DNA of 34,099 nt, from contig SKSF01000103.1 in assembly GCA_007118095.1 (NCBI GenBank), positions 1-34,099 of the forward strand. Direction: 5' to 3'. The notes under the pieces were generated by a model. The model did no database searches, was not told the origin of the DNA, and saw nothing but the letters and a program-made list of their open reading frames with translations. The position numbers and the translations under genes were made by a program. Shown in pieces: positions 22,245-29,115 of the stretch; the first letter of the stretch is position 1, and each line of letters opens with the position of its first letter. The stretch comes from Dehalococcoidia bacterium (lineage in GTDB: Bacteria > Chloroflexota > Dehalococcoidia > Tepidiformales > Tepidiformaceae).

Positions 22245-22664
22245 TCACCGCCCGGCGAGGCGGCGGTGTTCGACCATGGCGCAGCGGTCCTGGGTGGCGG
22301 CGATGCCGGCTTCGTGGGCCCGGGCAATGCCGGCGTCGTTGGTAATGCCAGACTGGAGCCAGACGCCGCTGGCACCGGCAGCGATGGCATCGTCGATCAC
22401 GTCATCGGTCTCGTTCCCACGGACGAAGACATCGACCAGGTCCACCGGGACGGGGATGTCCTGCACGCGCTCATAGGCCTGTTCGCCGAACACTTCATCC
22501 GCCCATTTCTGTTTTGGGACGGGGATGATGCGGTATCCGCTGGAGCGGAGGTAGCTGGCAATGCGGTAGGCGGGACGTTCGGGGCGGTCGTCGAGCCCGA
22601 CGACAGCGATCGTGCGGGCGGTGAGGAGGGCCTGTTCGGCGGCCCGTTCGTGTTCTGTGGGCAC
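22245..22664 (-). CDS. CoA-binding (Rossmann) domain protein, YccU type
   Basis: This 139-residue single-domain protein is of the CoA_binding_2 family. It has a nucleotide-binding start (TIAVVGLDDRPERPAYRIASYLRSSG), IIPVPKQ, and ASGVWLQSGI further on. Members bind CoA or related nucleotides; their role is poorly defined. GTG 22664 is preferred over TTG 22676 because GGAG (22671-22674) is 6 nt upstream. It lies 133 nt upstream of fabF on the same strand. Confidence 0.85.
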   Translation of the reverse strand: MPTEHERAAEQALLTARTIAVVGLDDRPERPAYRIASYLRSSGYRIIPVPKQKWADEVFGEQAYERVQDIPVPVDLVDVFVRGNETDDVIDDAIAAGASGVWLQSGITNDAGIARAHEAGIAATQDRCAMVEHRRLAGR

Positions 22665-22748
22665 ACGGTTCTCCAACGGTTTTCTTCAGGATGCCGCGCG
22701 GCGCGCATGGTGTCACGGGGTGGACGTACCGGGGTGGCATGCGGCCGC

Positions 22749-23048: not shown

Positions 23049-23426
23049 GTGCGGGCGCGCGGCCTGGCGGCGATCACGGTGGCCCAGGGGGTGCTCATCC
23101 TGGGCACCTGGGGCGCGTTCGTCGCGCGCGGCGTGTTCGGCCAGGGCATCCGGACAGTCGAGAACAACCAGTACCTGGCATTCCACGTCGCGGCCGAGGT
23201 GGCGATGGGCCTTGCGCTGTTGGTTGGTGGCGCCGGGCTTGCGCTGCGCCACGGGTGGGGGACCGCGGTTGCGGTCGCCGCGTGGGGCGCGGTGGTCTAC
23301 AGCGCGGTGAATGCGCTCGCGCATGCCGCGCGGAAGGAACAACGACTCACGCCGGTGCTGGCGGGCTCTGCGGCACTTGGGGTTGCGATGGTGGGGTTGC
23401 TGGGGCGCAAGCGCAATGGGCGCTAA
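23049..23426 (+). CDS. Four-helix small membrane protein
   Basis: This 125-residue protein has four hydrophobic segments (about residues 7-28, 45-66, 70-88 and 100-118) and a basic C-terminus RKRNGR. It resembles generic DoxX-sized membrane proteins but has no firm family match. It starts at GTG 23049, 9 nt after the preceding stop. The last 4 bp overlap the converging yggT gene. Confidence 0.6.
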   Translation: MRARGLAAITVAQGVLILGTWGAFVARGVFGQGIRTVENNQYLAFHVAAEVAMGLALLVGGAGLALRHGWGTAVAVAAWGAVVYSAVNALAHAARKEQRLTPVLAGSAALGVAMVGLLGRKRNGR

Positions 23427-23662
23427 CTGGCCTCGAGATTGATGACGACCTGCATCATCACGATGAGCATGAGGATGGTGAAGAGGGGGCTGAGGTCGAT
23501 CATGCCCATCTGCGGCATCACACGGCGCACCGGCTCGATGATGGGCTCCGTGAGGCCGTGAATCACCTGGTAAAGCTTGCTGCCCTGGTCCACGGGGAAA
23601 AAGCTCATGAATGCACGAGCAATGATCGTCCAGAGCATGAGCTGCAGGAACGTGACCGTCAT
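23423..23662 (-). CDS. yggT: YggT family membrane protein
   Basis: This 79-residue single-repeat YggT protein has two helices flanking the conserved LTEPIIEPVRRVMPQMGMIDLSPLFTIL. YggT proteins are linked to cell division or osmotic resistance in other bacteria, but the mechanism is unknown. It is separated from the upstream heliorhodopsin gene by 158 nt that contain a strong stem-loop. A -10-like TAGAGT lies about 50 nt upstream, so it probably has its own promoter. Confidence 0.88.
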   Translation of the reverse strand: MTVTFLQLMLWTIIARAFMSFFPVDQGSKLYQVIHGLTEPIIEPVRRVMPQMGMIDLSPLFTILMLIVMMQVVINLEAS

Positions 23663-23783
23663 GGAGACAACGTCGGGGTGAATTTCCGGGCCTCGCTTGG
23701 TAGGTGCTCACTCTAACGGTAGAGAGGCAGGTGGTTCCCCGGCAAGTGGGTAGCCCACACAGCTGCCGGGGCTCGCTCGCATT

Positions 23784-23808
23784 GCCCGGGAGCGGGACGC
23801 TCCCGGGC
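23784..23808. terminator. Strong stem-loop downstream of the heliorhodopsin gene
   Basis: A perfect 11-bp stem (gcccgggagcg 23784-23794 with 23798-23808) has a 3-nt loop. It lies 12 nt after the heliorhodopsin stop. The minus side lacks a T tract; the plus side has a looser CTTTCC...CTTTT run. It is probably a transcript end, possibly Rho-assisted. Confidence 0.55.
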
Positions 23809-23820
23809 CTTTCCCGGCTT

Positions 23821-24594
23821 TTAGTCTGCGAGCGTCCCGCTGAATACCTGCCACGCCAGCGCGGACTTGGCGGTGAGGCTGAGGAGGATATAGACGGATT
23901 CGCCGAAGAGGTAGTCCTTCCAGGGGCCGATGCGGAGGTACTGGAGCAGCATGTTGACGGCGAAGATGTTGAAGAAGATGAAGAGCGACACAAAGATCGC
24001 GTAGACGAACGTGGGCGCGGTGGCATCCGTCGTGGGCCCCCAGAGGTAAAGCCCGATGGCGAGCCAGGGGATGATGCCGGCGAGACAGCCAAAGATGAAG
24101 CTCAGCCAGTTGGCATTGCCCGGCTCTTCGTAATGCTCCATGAGCAGCCCGAACAGGATCATCGCGGCATTTATCGAGAAGAGGCCGATGAGCGCCACGG
24201 CGTCGCCGATGCCGGTGAGCATGGCGATGAGCACGATCATGATGGAGGCGCTGACGGAGTATTCGATCCAGCGAGCGTAGTTGCGGTTGCGGAGGAGGTT
24301 CGCCCGGTACCACCCGAAGATGCCGGGCGTGATGATGAGCAGGTGGGCCAGTGCCGACAGGAACAGGAAGGCGGCCACGCCCCACGCGATGCGGACATCG
24401 AAGAGGGTTTCGAGCTCGCTTTCAGTGCCTGGCGGGCCCTCCAGGAAGGTGGCGGTGACGGGGAGGGTGAAGTCGTTCGCCAGGACGAGGACGAGGATCC
24501 CCTGGATGGCGTGGAGCACGCCCATGGCCAGATTGTAGGCGCGGAGCCTGGAAAACGTCCGTTCGCTGGCTGCGGGCGCAGCCGTCGCTGTCAT
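23821..24594 (-). CDS. Heliorhodopsin
   Basis: This 257-residue seven-helix protein closely follows the heliorhodopsin pattern. TM1 holds NLAMGVLHAIQG, TM3 opens with RWIEYSVSASIM containing the counterion Glu111, and TM7 contains SLTAKSALAWQVF with the retinal Schiff-base Lys243. These positions are close to Glu107 and Lys241 in the first described member, 48C12. Heliorhodopsins bind all-trans retinal, have an inverted topology (N-terminus inside), show slow photocycles and do not generally pump ions; a sensory or enzyme-regulating role is suspected. A TACGCT box ends 6 nt before the ATG. No retinal synthesis gene is nearby, so retinal must come from elsewhere. Confidence 0.93.
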   Translation of the reverse strand: MTATAAPAASERTFSRLRAYNLAMGVLHAIQGILVLVLANDFTLPVTATFLEGPPGTESELETLFDVRIAWGVAAFLFLSALAHLLIITPGIFGWYRANLLRNRNYARWIEYSVSASIMIVLIAMLTGIGDAVALIGLFSINAAMILFGLLMEHYEEPGNANWLSFIFGCLAGIIPWLAIGLYLWGPTTDATAPTFVYAIFVSLFIFFNIFAVNMLLQYLRIGPWKDYLFGESVYILLSLTAKSALAWQVFSGTLAD

Positions 24595-24600
24595 CCGTAC

Positions 24601-24606
24601 AGCGTA
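24601..24606 (-). promoter_or_regulatory. -10 box of the heliorhodopsin gene (leaderless)
   Basis: TACGCT on the minus strand fits the TANNNT pattern and ends 6 nt before the ATG at 24594. No SD and no good -35 are present. Confidence 0.4.
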
Positions 24607-24644: not shown

Positions 24645-25325
24645 CTAGTGTTCGGCGGGGCTGATTTCCTCGCCCGTATCAGTGTCGATTTCGACCAGCT
24701 CCCAGCCTTCGGGCAGGTGTACCTCGGCGCCGGTAAGTGCGGTGACGGCGTTGGCGAGCGCGAGGGTGCGGTCCATGCCGTCGTACTGGTCGCTTGCCGC
24801 GACGGGGACCTGCGATAGCTTGAGGCGCTTTCCGCTCTTCTTCACGAGCCAGAGGGCGAACTGGCGGAGGTCGTCGGTGTGGTCGTGCCAGCGGATGGGC
24901 TCGTCGCCTTCGATCGTGACTTCAAGGTAGGCGATCTTCTGGAAGGGCACGAGCTCGCGGGTGCCGATGCCCATACCCAGGTACCCCTGCTGCCAGGTGG
25001 CCGAGTTCTTGTTCTTGTCGATGATGACGTCGGCGCCGATAAAAGCGCTGATCAATGACATAATGGCGACCGGGAAGGCGATCAGGCAATAAAACAGGAT
25101 GATGGCCAGCGCCCATACGGGCAGGATCTGCCATCCCTGGGCCATGAGGCCTGCGCCAACGAGGACGGTACCCAGGATGATGATGGGGATGATGACGGTG
25201 CCCCGCGCCGCTTTGATCTCGATCTTGTCGTCGCTGATGACGGCCATCGAGCGGTGGAGCAGCACCGCGACGCGGCCATCGCGCCGGGGGATCGCGACGT
25301 GGGAGGGGACGGGCACTTCGGCCAT
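24645..25325 (-). CDS. Two-helix membrane protein of unknown function
   Basis: This 226-residue protein has a cytosolic start, two membrane helices (about residues 43-63 and 68-95) and a C-terminal cytosolic domain of mixed strands and helices with RWHDHTDDLRQFALWLVKK. The layout resembles bacterial PH-like or YdbT-type membrane proteins, but the match is not firm. TACCCT ends 9 nt before the ATG. It lies 50 nt upstream of the heliorhodopsin gene on the same strand, so a link with that gene is possible. Confidence 0.65.
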   Translation of the reverse strand: MAEVPVPSHVAIPRRDGRVAVLLHRSMAVISDDKIEIKAARGTVIIPIIILGTVLVGAGLMAQGWQILPVWALAIILFYCLIAFPVAIMSLISAFIGADVIIDKNKNSATWQQGYLGMGIGTRELVPFQKIAYLEVTIEGDEPIRWHDHTDDLRQFALWLVKKSGKRLKLSQVPVAASDQYDGMDRTLALANAVTALTGAEVHLPEGWELVEIDTDTGEEISPAEH

Positions 25326-25616: not shown

Positions 25617-25674
25617 TGCGCTGCGCGTAGGATGCCGGTACGTCGGAAGCCGATCGCGGCCGGGGGTGAGGACC

Positions 25675-26523
25675 ATGAGCGAGTTGCAGACGATACTTGA
25701 GGGGCTGGCGTTTCCCGAAGGGCCCCGCTGGCATGAAGGGCGGCTGTGGTTTTCGGACATGCACGCGCACGAGGTGGTCGCCGTCGATACCGAAGGCCAG
25801 CGCGAGACCATCTGCGAGGTGCACAACCGGCCCTCAGGCCTGGGGTGGCTGCCGGACGGGCGGCTGCTGATCGTCTCAATGGTCGACCGGAAGCTTCTCC
25901 GGATGGAGCACGACGGCACGCTGTCCGAACACGCCGACCTGTCTGCCGTGGCGGGCGGGAACTGCAACGACATGGTGGTGGACGCGCAGGGCCGGGCCTA
26001 CGTGGGCAACTTCGGTTTTGATATGGAAGGCGGCGACGAACCACGCCCGGCCGCGCTCGCGGTGGTCACCCCGGATGGCTCGGTGCAGGTGGTGGCGGAG
26101 GACCTGGCGTTTCCCAACGGGACGGTGATCACACCCGACGGCGGCACGCTGATCATCGGCGAGACCCGCGCCCGGCAACTCACGGCGTTCGATATCGCGC
26201 CGGATGGTTCGCTGAGCAACCGCCGGGTCTTCGCCGACGTGTCGCCGTCGCTCCCGGACGGGATCGCGCTCGACGAGGAAGGTGGCGTCTGGGTGGCGTC
26301 GCCGCGGACGAACGAGGTGCTGCGCGCGTTGCCGGACGGCAGCGTGGGCGAACGGATTTCGACCGGCGACCGGGGGGCGTTCGCGTGCATGCTGGGCGGC
26401 GCCGACCGGAAGACGCTCTTTGTGCTGGTCTCCGGGTCTTCCGACCCCGTGGAGTGTGCGCGCGAACGGACCGGGGCAATCCTCGCGACCGAAGTGCGGG
26501 CACCTGGAGCGGGCTTGCCGTGA
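25675..26523 (+). CDS. SMP-30/gluconolactonase-family protein
   Basis: This 282-residue six-bladed propeller protein has the metal-site residues of the SMP-30 family: Glu15 (FPEGPRW), Asn148 (FPNGT) and Asp195 (LPDGIALD), plus NCNDMVVD near 96-103. Members hydrolyse sugar lactones or other lactones with a divalent metal. There is no signal peptide. The ATG follows GGTGAGG. A TAGGAT -10-like box lies at 25628-25633, in the gap after the small membrane protein. Confidence 0.9.
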   Translation: MSELQTILEGLAFPEGPRWHEGRLWFSDMHAHEVVAVDTEGQRETICEVHNRPSGLGWLPDGRLLIVSMVDRKLLRMEHDGTLSEHADLSAVAGGNCNDMVVDAQGRAYVGNFGFDMEGGDEPRPAALAVVTPDGSVQVVAEDLAFPNGTVITPDGGTLIIGETRARQLTAFDIAPDGSLSNRRVFADVSPSLPDGIALDEEGGVWVASPRTNEVLRALPDGSVGERISTGDRGAFACMLGGADRKTLFVLVSGSSDPVECARERTGAILATEVRAPGAGLP

Positions 26524-26625: not shown

Positions 26626-26880
26626 GTGAAGTGGTTCCTGGGAATGATGATCATGAACCTGTTGATGGGCCGGGGGCGGCGTGGCATGGGCGGTATGAGC
26701 CGGCGCGGGGGTGTTGGTATGGGCGGCATGGGTATGGGCCGCCGCGGGATGGGTGGTATGGGGATGGGTCGAAGGCGTGGGATGGGCTATGGCGGTGGCC
26801 GGCGCGGGTCATCGATGGGAATGCTGGTGGTGGTGGGGATCGTGATCGTGGGGTTCCTGGTCTTCAGCAACGCGCTCTGA
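26626..26880 (+). CDS. MKW-type micro membrane protein, copy 1 (Gly/Met-rich)
   Basis: This 84-residue protein has a short hydrophobic N-terminus (MKWFLGMMIMNLLMGR), a middle of repeated GMGGMGMGRR units (about residues 19-60) and a C-terminal membrane helix ending in SNAL. It is the first of three adjacent genes with the same three-part plan. It starts at GTG 26626, next to GACGAGG. A TAGACT -10-like box is at 26554-26559. The Met-rich linker might bind metal such as copper; this is only a suggestion. No known family. Confidence 0.7.
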   Translation: MKWFLGMMIMNLLMGRGRRGMGGMSRRGGVGMGGMGMGRRGMGGMGMGRRRGMGYGGGRRGSSMGMLVVVGIVIVGFLVFSNAL

Positions 26881-27002
26881 TACCAGGGTGTCCCCCGCTG
26901 TTCACCAATTCGATCGGTATCTCTTCGGCGGAGCTTCCTGGCGCCTGCGTACGATGACTGCCATGCCAGCAGGGCACAGTGCACCGGCGAGGTGAGCCGC
27001 GG

Positions 27003-27212
27003 ATGAAATGGATGATCGGGAACCTGATCGCGAACCTTATCCTGGGTGGCCGGGACGGCCCCCTGGAGCGCGCGGGGCGCGGTGGCATGGACGACCGGCA
27101 CGACCGGTATAGCCGGCCCGCCGGCGCTTACCGGACGAGCACGCCGCTGCGGTTCGTGATGATGGTGGCGCTGGCGGTCGTCGTGATCATCGCGATGGGC
27201 AATATGTTCTGA
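27003..27212 (+). CDS. MKW-type micro membrane protein, copy 2
   Basis: This 69-residue protein has the same plan: MKWMIGNLIANLILGGR, a charged linker (RDGPLERAGRGGMDDRHDRYSRP) and a C-terminal helix LRFVMMVALAVVVIIAMGNMF. The linker is polar rather than Met-rich. GAGGTGA lies upstream of ATG 27003, and a TACGAT -10-like box is at 26950-26955, giving it its own probable promoter in the 122-nt gap. Confidence 0.7.
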   Translation: MKWMIGNLIANLILGGRDGPLERAGRGGMDDRHDRYSRPAGAYRTSTPLRFVMMVALAVVVIIAMGNMF

Positions 27213-27318
27213 GGCTTGCACGCGCCCGGGTTGCCGGTGCGGCGGATGCGCCGGGGGCTCGCGTATGATGGGCGTGACGCTAGCAGACTGCGAAGCAGCG
27301 TGGTGAGGTGTGCTGCCG

Positions 27319-27531
27319 ATGTTGAAGTGGGTGGCCGGGGCAATGATCCTGCAGCAGCTCCTTGGCGGCCGCGTGGGGCGCCAGGGACGGGACGGCATGG
27401 GCGGTCCGGGCACCGGGCGGGGCCGTCACCGCCGGCGCCCTGGCGCGAACCCGGGCATGTCGCCCCTGCGGGTGGCGATGCTCGTGGGCGTGGGAGCCGT
27501 GGTGTTGCTGGCGCTTGGGAATGCACTGTGA
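27319..27531 (+). CDS. MKW-type micro membrane protein, copy 3
   Basis: This 70-residue protein (73 if GTG 27310 is used) begins MLKWVAGAMILQQLLGGR. It has an Arg/Gly-rich linker and ends with LRVAMLVGVGAVVLLALGNAL, very like copy 2. GAGGTG (27305-27310) lies 8 nt before ATG 27319. A TATGAT box is at 27264-27269. The three copies share both ends but not the linker. Confidence 0.7.
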   Translation: MLKWVAGAMILQQLLGGRVGRQGRDGMGGPGTGRGRHRRRPGANPGMSPLRVAMLVGVGAVVLLALGNAL

Positions 27532-27784
27532 GGCGACAGCCACGCTCACTCATTCGGGTCGGCAGTGTGGATGCGGATGCCGCAAGGGTCATTACTGCCT
27601 GGCCCGAGGGTGACCTGGCGTGAGAGGCGGTAGAGCGCGAAATCCGCGAACACATCCGGGATCTTTCGCAGCACAGGGAGTCGGCATAGGCGCCAGCGGC
27701 TGACGGCACGACGCCATGTGGCGCTCGGGCGTAGGGGCAGTGGCCGGTTTGCTGGTGGCACAGCCTGCTGAAGAGGTGCCGCCT
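27532..27784. other. Gap between the micro membrane proteins and the portal gene
   Basis: This 253-nt stretch has no clear gene. On the minus strand 27546-27761 is open for 71 codons, and its second half (RKIPDVFADFALYRLSRQ) reads like a real protein with high GC at third positions. It lacks an SD and a known family, so it may be a degraded fragment. GAAGAGGTG before 27785 serves the portal gene. Confidence 0.35.
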
Positions 27785-29115
27785 ATGTCCGAAACCCGGT
27801 CGCTTCCCGTGCTTGTCGCACAGCTCGACCCCGCACGCCGCCGTCACTACCGCGAAAACCTGGCCTTCTACCGGGGCGAGCAATGGCACGGCCGGCCACG
27901 CCGGGGCGAGCGGCGGCTCACGATGAACTACGCCCGAGCCTTCGTCGACAAGGTCACGAGTTACCTGTTGAACGGCGCGGCGGTCCATATCGAAGCGGCG
28001 GACCCGGGCGACGCAGCGGCCCGTGCAAGGGCACGGGAGGCCGACCATGCCCTGCGCTCGGTCGAAGCCGCGAACGGGCTCGGGCAGCTCGACTACGAGA
28101 CAGAGGTCGATTGCGCGGTCCTGGGCGACGGCGCCTACAAGGTGACCTGGGACACCGATGAGCGGCAGGTGCGGGTGAGCGCGCCGGACGTGCAGGGCAT
28201 CTTCGCATGGCGGCTGCCGGACGACCCCGCGCGGGTGCTGGCGGTGGCGTCGCAATATGACCTGCGACCGGGCGGCCCGCGCGACGAGCAGCCGCCGGTC
28301 ACGGTGACGGAATACTGGACCTCCGCGCGCTTCGAACGGTGGGAGGGCGATGCGATGGTTGAGGCGTCGCCAAACCCGTACGGGTTCCTGCCCTTCGTGC
28401 TGTTCCCGAACGTGCGCGAACCGAAGCAGCACTGGGGCAGCAGCGACCTGCCGCCCATCATGGAGCCGGTGCGGGAGCTCAACCGTGCGTACAGCCAGCT
28501 CAGCCAGATCCTCGAGCTCTCCGGGAACCCCGTTGCCGTGCTCGAAGGGGTGAACGAATCGCGCGACATCGCCGTGGAGCCGGGCGCCGTGTGGGAGATG
28601 CCGGAAAGCTCGCGCGCCTATTTGCTCGACCTGCTGCAGGGCGGGGCGTGGCGCTGCACCGCGACTATATCGACCTGGTGTACCGGACCCTGCATGACCT
28701 GGGGGAATCGCCGCGGACAGCGTTCGGGCACAACCCGCAGGGGCTCAGCGGTGTGGCCCTGAACACCGAGCTCGACCCCATCGTGCGGAAGGTGGAGCGG
28801 AAGCGGCTCATCCGGACGACAGTGTACGAACGCCGCGCGATGCTGATCCTGCGCCTGCTGGCGCGGTACCGCGGGCTCGATATCGAGGGCGTCCGGCCGG
28901 TGATGCGCTGGGGACCGGTGCTGCCGCTCGACCGGGCGCGGGAAGTGGCCGACCAGCGGGCCCTCGTGGAGGCGGGTATCCGGTCGCGCCGGAGCGCCGC
29001 CGCCGATCTCGGCGCTGATGACCCCGACGGCGAGTGGAGCCGCGTGCTTGTCGAGCGACGCGCCCTGGGGCCGGGGGCGACCGGGGACGAGCCACGCACA
29101 TCGGTTACGGGTTGA
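27785..29115 (+). pseudogene. Phage portal protein, frameshifted and orphan
   Basis: Residues 1 to about 285 match an SPP1/gp6-like phage portal protein: Arg-rich start, YRGEQWHGRPRRGERRLTMNYARAFVDKVTSYLLNG, and an N-terminal wing and stem. Near 28640, in the G-rich run ggcggggcgtgg, the frame is lost; the protein resumes in the -1 frame as VALHRDYIDLVYRTLHDLGESPRTAFG and continues to 29115. Restoring one G rejoins both parts into about 443 residues, close to normal portal length. Either the gene is dead or the homopolymer was misread. No terminase, capsid or tail gene is adjacent, so it is a phage remnant or a captured gene. Confidence 0.8.

Follow-up and report, generated by a model that had tools for sequence, protein, structure and literature searches.

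An intact heliorhodopsin in a Dehalococcoidia genome: gene neighbourhood, descent and retinal supply

The heliorhodopsin gene and its surroundings

This study examined a 34,099-nt stretch of DNA (here called the window) that forms contig 38 of a 3.2-Mb, 227-contig genome assembly, 98% complete and 1.5% contaminated. The first-pass annotation had placed it in a probable Chloroflexota genome, which agrees with the class of the host, Dehalococcoidia. Contamination of the bin was ruled out by family-specific synteny on both flanks of the locus. The window carries a gene for a heliorhodopsin, a type-3 rhodopsin, and its closest neighbours encode a membrane protein of 226 aa, a YggT-family protein, a CoA-binding protein and FabF (Table 1).

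Table 1. Positions in the window of the genes and signals discussed in the text
Feature	Positions	Strand	Description	Basis
CoA-binding protein gene	22245..22676	-	PF13380; conserved neighbour of the 226-aa gene in 19/19 relatives
Probable inserted segment	22677..24644	.	1,968 bp; heliorhodopsin, YggT and two small plus-strand ORFs	Synteny
YggT-family gene	23423..23662	-	79 aa; downstream of heliorhodopsin, in the same segment	PF02325
Stem-loop	23774..23798	-	GC-rich, 11-bp stem, core CCCGGGAGCG-TCC-CGCTCCCGGG; after the heliorhodopsin stop
Heliorhodopsin gene	23821..24594	-	257 aa; Schiff-base Lys243, counterion Glu111, SxxxK at 239-243	Profiles, PDB matches, alignment, model
Candidate leaderless promoter	24601..24606	-	TACGCT, -10-like box; starts 12 nt before the heliorhodopsin ATG
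226-aa gene	24645..25325	-	Two-helix membrane protein; family without a name	Distribution and synteny
SMP-30/gluconolactonase-like gene	25672..26523	+
Small-protein gene 1	26626..26880	+	First of three in tandem, 73-84 aa
Small-protein gene 2	26979..27212	+	Second of three in tandem
Small-protein gene 3	27310..27531	+	Third of three in tandem
Phage portal-like gene	27716..28762	+	348 aa	phrog_64 (1.1e-13), PF05133 (2.8e-9)

The gene is intact and encodes a true heliorhodopsin of ordinary type. Its reading frame is complete, running from an ATG to a TAA without an internal stop. Profile searches returned heliorhodopsin models and not another seven-helix family: Pfam PF18761 matched over its full length with 340.4 bits (cut-off 26.7, E = 6.5e-102) and the NCBIfam equivalog NF038020, 'heliorhodopsin HeR', with 331.8 bits (cut-off 100), while the type-1 rhodopsin profile PF01036 gave no match. 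Sequence matches in the PDB were to heliorhodopsins only. In an alignment with 32 other heliorhodopsins, the protein retained all 46 invariant columns, among which are Glu111, Ser239 and Lys243; its counterion sits in helix 3, and helix 7 carries the SxxxK motif that has been used as a criterion for bona fide heliorhodopsins (PMC8612252). An AlphaFold2 model (mean pLDDT 88.7) had seven helices and a beta-hairpin in the A-B loop; in a fold search it scored TM 0.87-0.92 against the crystal structures of the heliorhodopsins 48C12 and TaHeR, and TM 0.49-0.67, at 12-18% identity, against type-1 rhodopsins. The completeness of the gene, the seven helices, and the retention of the Schiff-base lysine and its counterion, all claimed in the first-pass annotation, were thus confirmed.

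The start codon is preceded by a -10-like box but by no Shine-Dalgarno sequence. Among the 157 first-ATG starts in about 270 kb of the same genome, 9 had the pattern TANNNT at exactly -12, whereas other positions had about one each; between -16 and -9, many starts in this DNA show a motif resembling a Shine-Dalgarno sequence. Because of the position of the box, the lack of a Shine-Dalgarno sequence and the enrichment of TANNNT at -12 in this genome, the gene likely has its own leaderless promoter, so that the earlier remark that it seems leaderless is plausible. The box is not shared by relatives. Before heliorhodopsins generally it was found in 14 of 107 cases against a mean of 11.2 in shuffled sequences, which rules out a leaderless start as a conserved trait of the family. 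The strong stem-loop at which the gene had been said to end is real (the 91-nt region 23740-23830 folds with -48.3 kcal/mol, z = -3.63), and its core occurs once in the 270 kb; since it lacks a T-run, however, it does not qualify as a canonical intrinsic terminator.

Several neighbouring genes merit a brief description. The 226-aa protein matched no family in Pfam, PHROGs or NCBIfam, and a single-sequence fold model of it was unusable (pLDDT 45). Its family is conserved, found in 105 of the 294 Dehalococcoidia genomes sampled, and deserves a profile model of its own. On the opposite strand lies one of about five SMP-30/gluconolactonase-like matches in the genome. It is followed by three tandem genes for small proteins that share a 'KW..G..I' start, a Gly/Arg-rich middle and a single hydrophobic C-terminal helix; these are 30-51% identical to the first of them and matched nothing in Pfam or PHROGs. 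The adjoining gene matches phage portal proteins, and as no other phage genes were recognised alongside, it reads as a stranded or domesticated phage gene.

Distribution, descent and insertion site

Heliorhodopsins of SAR202 and other Chloroflexi have been published previously (PMC10444878, PMC6946804, PMC8612252), and Chloroflexi are listed among the carriers, which were found to be monoderm (PMC8612252). The window gene is a further, intact member of a family already common in Dehalococcoidia, where it was present in 61 of the 294 genomes. Within the host's own taxonomic family the distribution is patchy, with a trace of the gene in 12 of 38 genomes, one of them a fragment. A few database records deserve caution. 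Heliorhodopsin contigs L087, L091 and L053 come from records whose titles name Bifidobacterium breve and Dehalococcoides mccartyi, and these species names look doubtful because L087 and L091 group in the tree with sequences from other Actinomycetota MAGs, and L053 belongs to the class of the window but to a different family. One further heliorhodopsin (G115:C239:920-1662) lies in two overlapping pieces with one internal TAG, and is probably a broken copy or an assembly error.

In a tree of 110 heliorhodopsins, the window copy clustered with three copies from marine SAR202/Dehalococcoidia (support 92), while four other copies from the host's family formed a separate group with another family (support 99). 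Constraining the window copy to join these four cost 34 log-likelihood units, yet the constraint was not rejected by the AU test (p 0.203). Transfer from a SAR202-like donor is therefore favoured by the tree but not established, and horizontal transfer of the gene is best described as suggested, not shown.

In all 19 relatives compared, the CoA-binding gene follows the 226-aa gene on the same strand; the two abut or overlap in 17 of these and are separated by 0.5-0.9 kb in the other two. In the window they stand 1,968 bp apart, and the intervening segment contains the heliorhodopsin. The segment probably arrived by insertion between the two genes in this lineage, but it could also have been retained here and lost from the relatives. 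Since the flanking genes abut in relatives, the apparent pairing of heliorhodopsin and 226-aa gene would be a product of either insertion or retention. An empty site was not seen at the genus level, where the nearest genome (81% complete) had no 226-aa gene and gave a weak match to the CoA-binding gene (26% identity).

Retinal supply and proposed function

According to the first-pass annotation, the window is free of genes for retinal synthesis, which is true and holds for the whole genome: profile searches of the 98%-complete assembly detected no phytoene/squalene synthase (SQS_PSY), no beta-carotene dioxygenase (BCD, or Blh) and no RPE65-type carotenoid oxygenase. The BCD model did match in a control actinobacterial genome, as did SQS_PSY and RPE65 in standard controls. 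Across the class, BCD was present in none of the 294 genomes. SQS_PSY was found in 101 of them, but in just 11 of the 61 with heliorhodopsin (50 were without it; Fisher p 0.002, uncorrected for kinship), and RPE65 in ten, mostly of the host's own family, and not tracking heliorhodopsin. Judged by its gene content, the host is apparently unable to make its own retinal by known genes. Since these genes are absent, dependence on retinal from outside is the simplest reading, by analogy with the retinal auxotrophy argued to be common among rhodopsin carriers (PMC12422013).

Taken together, the locus probably specifies a sensory heliorhodopsin that is charged with outside retinal, is transcribed alone and leaderless, and acts on a target encoded elsewhere. 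In the seven-helix opsin, retinal is predicted to attach to Lys243 and Glu111 to serve as the counterion. By homology the protein would have the inverted topology of heliorhodopsins, its N-terminus lying in the cytoplasm. Transcribed from its own promoter, the apo-opsin would be loaded with retinal scavenged from surrounding organisms, or with retinal made from a carotenoid obtained in the same way. Light would then drive a slow photocycle and a conformational change passed on at the cytoplasmic side, giving the protein the role of a light sensor or regulator rather than of an ion pump. No target or partner could be identified among the genes of the window, and the receiver of the signal would be a protein encoded elsewhere in the genome. 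Sensory or regulatory roles of heliorhodopsins have published support (PMC8612252, PMC9529153, PMC11109279), the precedents being heliorhodopsins that regulate glutamine synthetase (PMC9529153) or an ABC transporter (PMC11109279), and published analyses of gene context connect heliorhodopsins with light stress and with two-component systems (PMC8612252).

Some heliorhodopsins have been argued, from published work on flanking genes, to act through their neighbours, and candidates of this kind were weighed here. The 226-aa gene does lie 50 nt upstream on the same strand, as noted at first, and was proposed to encode a signalling partner, which would make the two genes a light-signalling operon. 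This is now very improbable, as the gene is near-universal in the host's family whether or not a heliorhodopsin is present: it occurs in 24 of the 25 family genomes of the class sample, 8 with heliorhodopsin and 16 without. Where both genes are present in other family genomes they are unlinked, lying about 105-109 kb apart in two of them (G060 and G141) and on different contigs in the remainder, and no relative of the 226-aa protein was found within about 6 kb of some 100 other heliorhodopsins, as far as their contigs reach. Nor is there a class-wide association (17 of 61 genomes with heliorhodopsin against 88 of 233 others, Fisher p 0.18). What does stay beside the 226-aa gene is the CoA-binding gene, its conserved partner, and the separate -10-like box before the heliorhodopsin also speaks against joint transcription. 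From these distributions the 226-aa gene looks like a bystander unrelated to heliorhodopsin. Thus the earlier reading was right about the family and phylum, the key residues, the completeness of the gene and the gap in retinal synthesis, but not about the signalling partner, which synteny exposes as a bystander. A local partner in the form of the YggT copy or the SMP-30-like gene is hardly more credible. The YggT gene is an extra, third copy in the genome (the family norm being a tandem pair, here on contig 81) and sits inside the heliorhodopsin segment, but YggT was beside no other heliorhodopsin examined. In L035 and L037, too, heliorhodopsin has an SMP-30-like gene 1-3 kb away, and in freshwater Actinobacteria it shares a transcript with the gene for a dehydrogenase that forms gluconolactone (PMC8612252); the L035 and L037 SMP-30 copies, though, are only 26-28% identical to that of the window, the heliorhodopsins of these two are close and probably represent one event, and the window gene is on the opposite strand, beyond the 226-aa gene. 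Heliorhodopsin loci of the family showed no consistently abutting neighbour, with local collinearity only between the same-genus genomes G060 and G141.

The remaining alternatives concern the protein itself. That the opsin acts without retinal, or that its light function has been lost and the gene is drifting, would fit a genome lacking the three retinal-related genes and the patchy occurrence of heliorhodopsin in the family. We consider this unlikely, as the catalytic residues and every invariant column are intact in an uninterrupted frame, and carriers that depend on external retinal are common. Less likely still is a light-driven ion transporter like V2HeR3 of a giant virus. Transport exists in at least one viral heliorhodopsin (PMC9448325), but the window protein is of the 48C12/TaHeR type, with 48-51% identity over the structure, and a paper of 2021 states that heliorhodopsins had until then not been shown to pump ions (PMC8612252). 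A variant of the favoured sensory role, to which we give little weight, is a stand-alone sensor in a cell without a carotenoid or retinal pathway, the state of which would report retinal scavenged from phototrophic neighbours as much as light. If true, this would be common to most Dehalococcoidia heliorhodopsins, given how few of their genomes carry phytoene synthase and that none carries BCD. Because the established final step in making retinal is missing throughout the class, functional tests of heliorhodopsins from these organisms must supply retinal.

Relationship to known heliorhodopsins

The nearest relatives of the window protein in the tree are the copies from marine SAR202/Dehalococcoidia MAGs (L032, L043 and L045), which belong to the same class and share at most 67% identity with it. 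Two heliorhodopsin copies are also known from the cultivated, light-inhibited SAR202 strain JH545 (PMC10444878); by the published description these lie one gene downstream of a photolyase, whereas the window copy has no photolyase neighbour. TaHeR, from a Thermoplasmatales archaeon (PDB 6is6, 7u55), is similar in fold (TM 0.87-0.89) and sequence (50-51% identity), but is archaeal and differs by short indels in the A-B, B-C and E-F loops. The likeness to 48C12 (PDB 6su3/6su4, 6uh3, 9ljj) is of the same order, with a TM-score of about 0.9, 48-50% identity, a similar length and the A-B loop hairpin in common, and E107 and K241 of 48C12 align with Glu111 and Lys243. A difference is seen at Trp163 of 48C12, a position reported as spectrum-shifting (PMC10444878), which in the alignment is replaced by Ile167 in the window protein, so that its absorption maximum may differ from that of 48C12.
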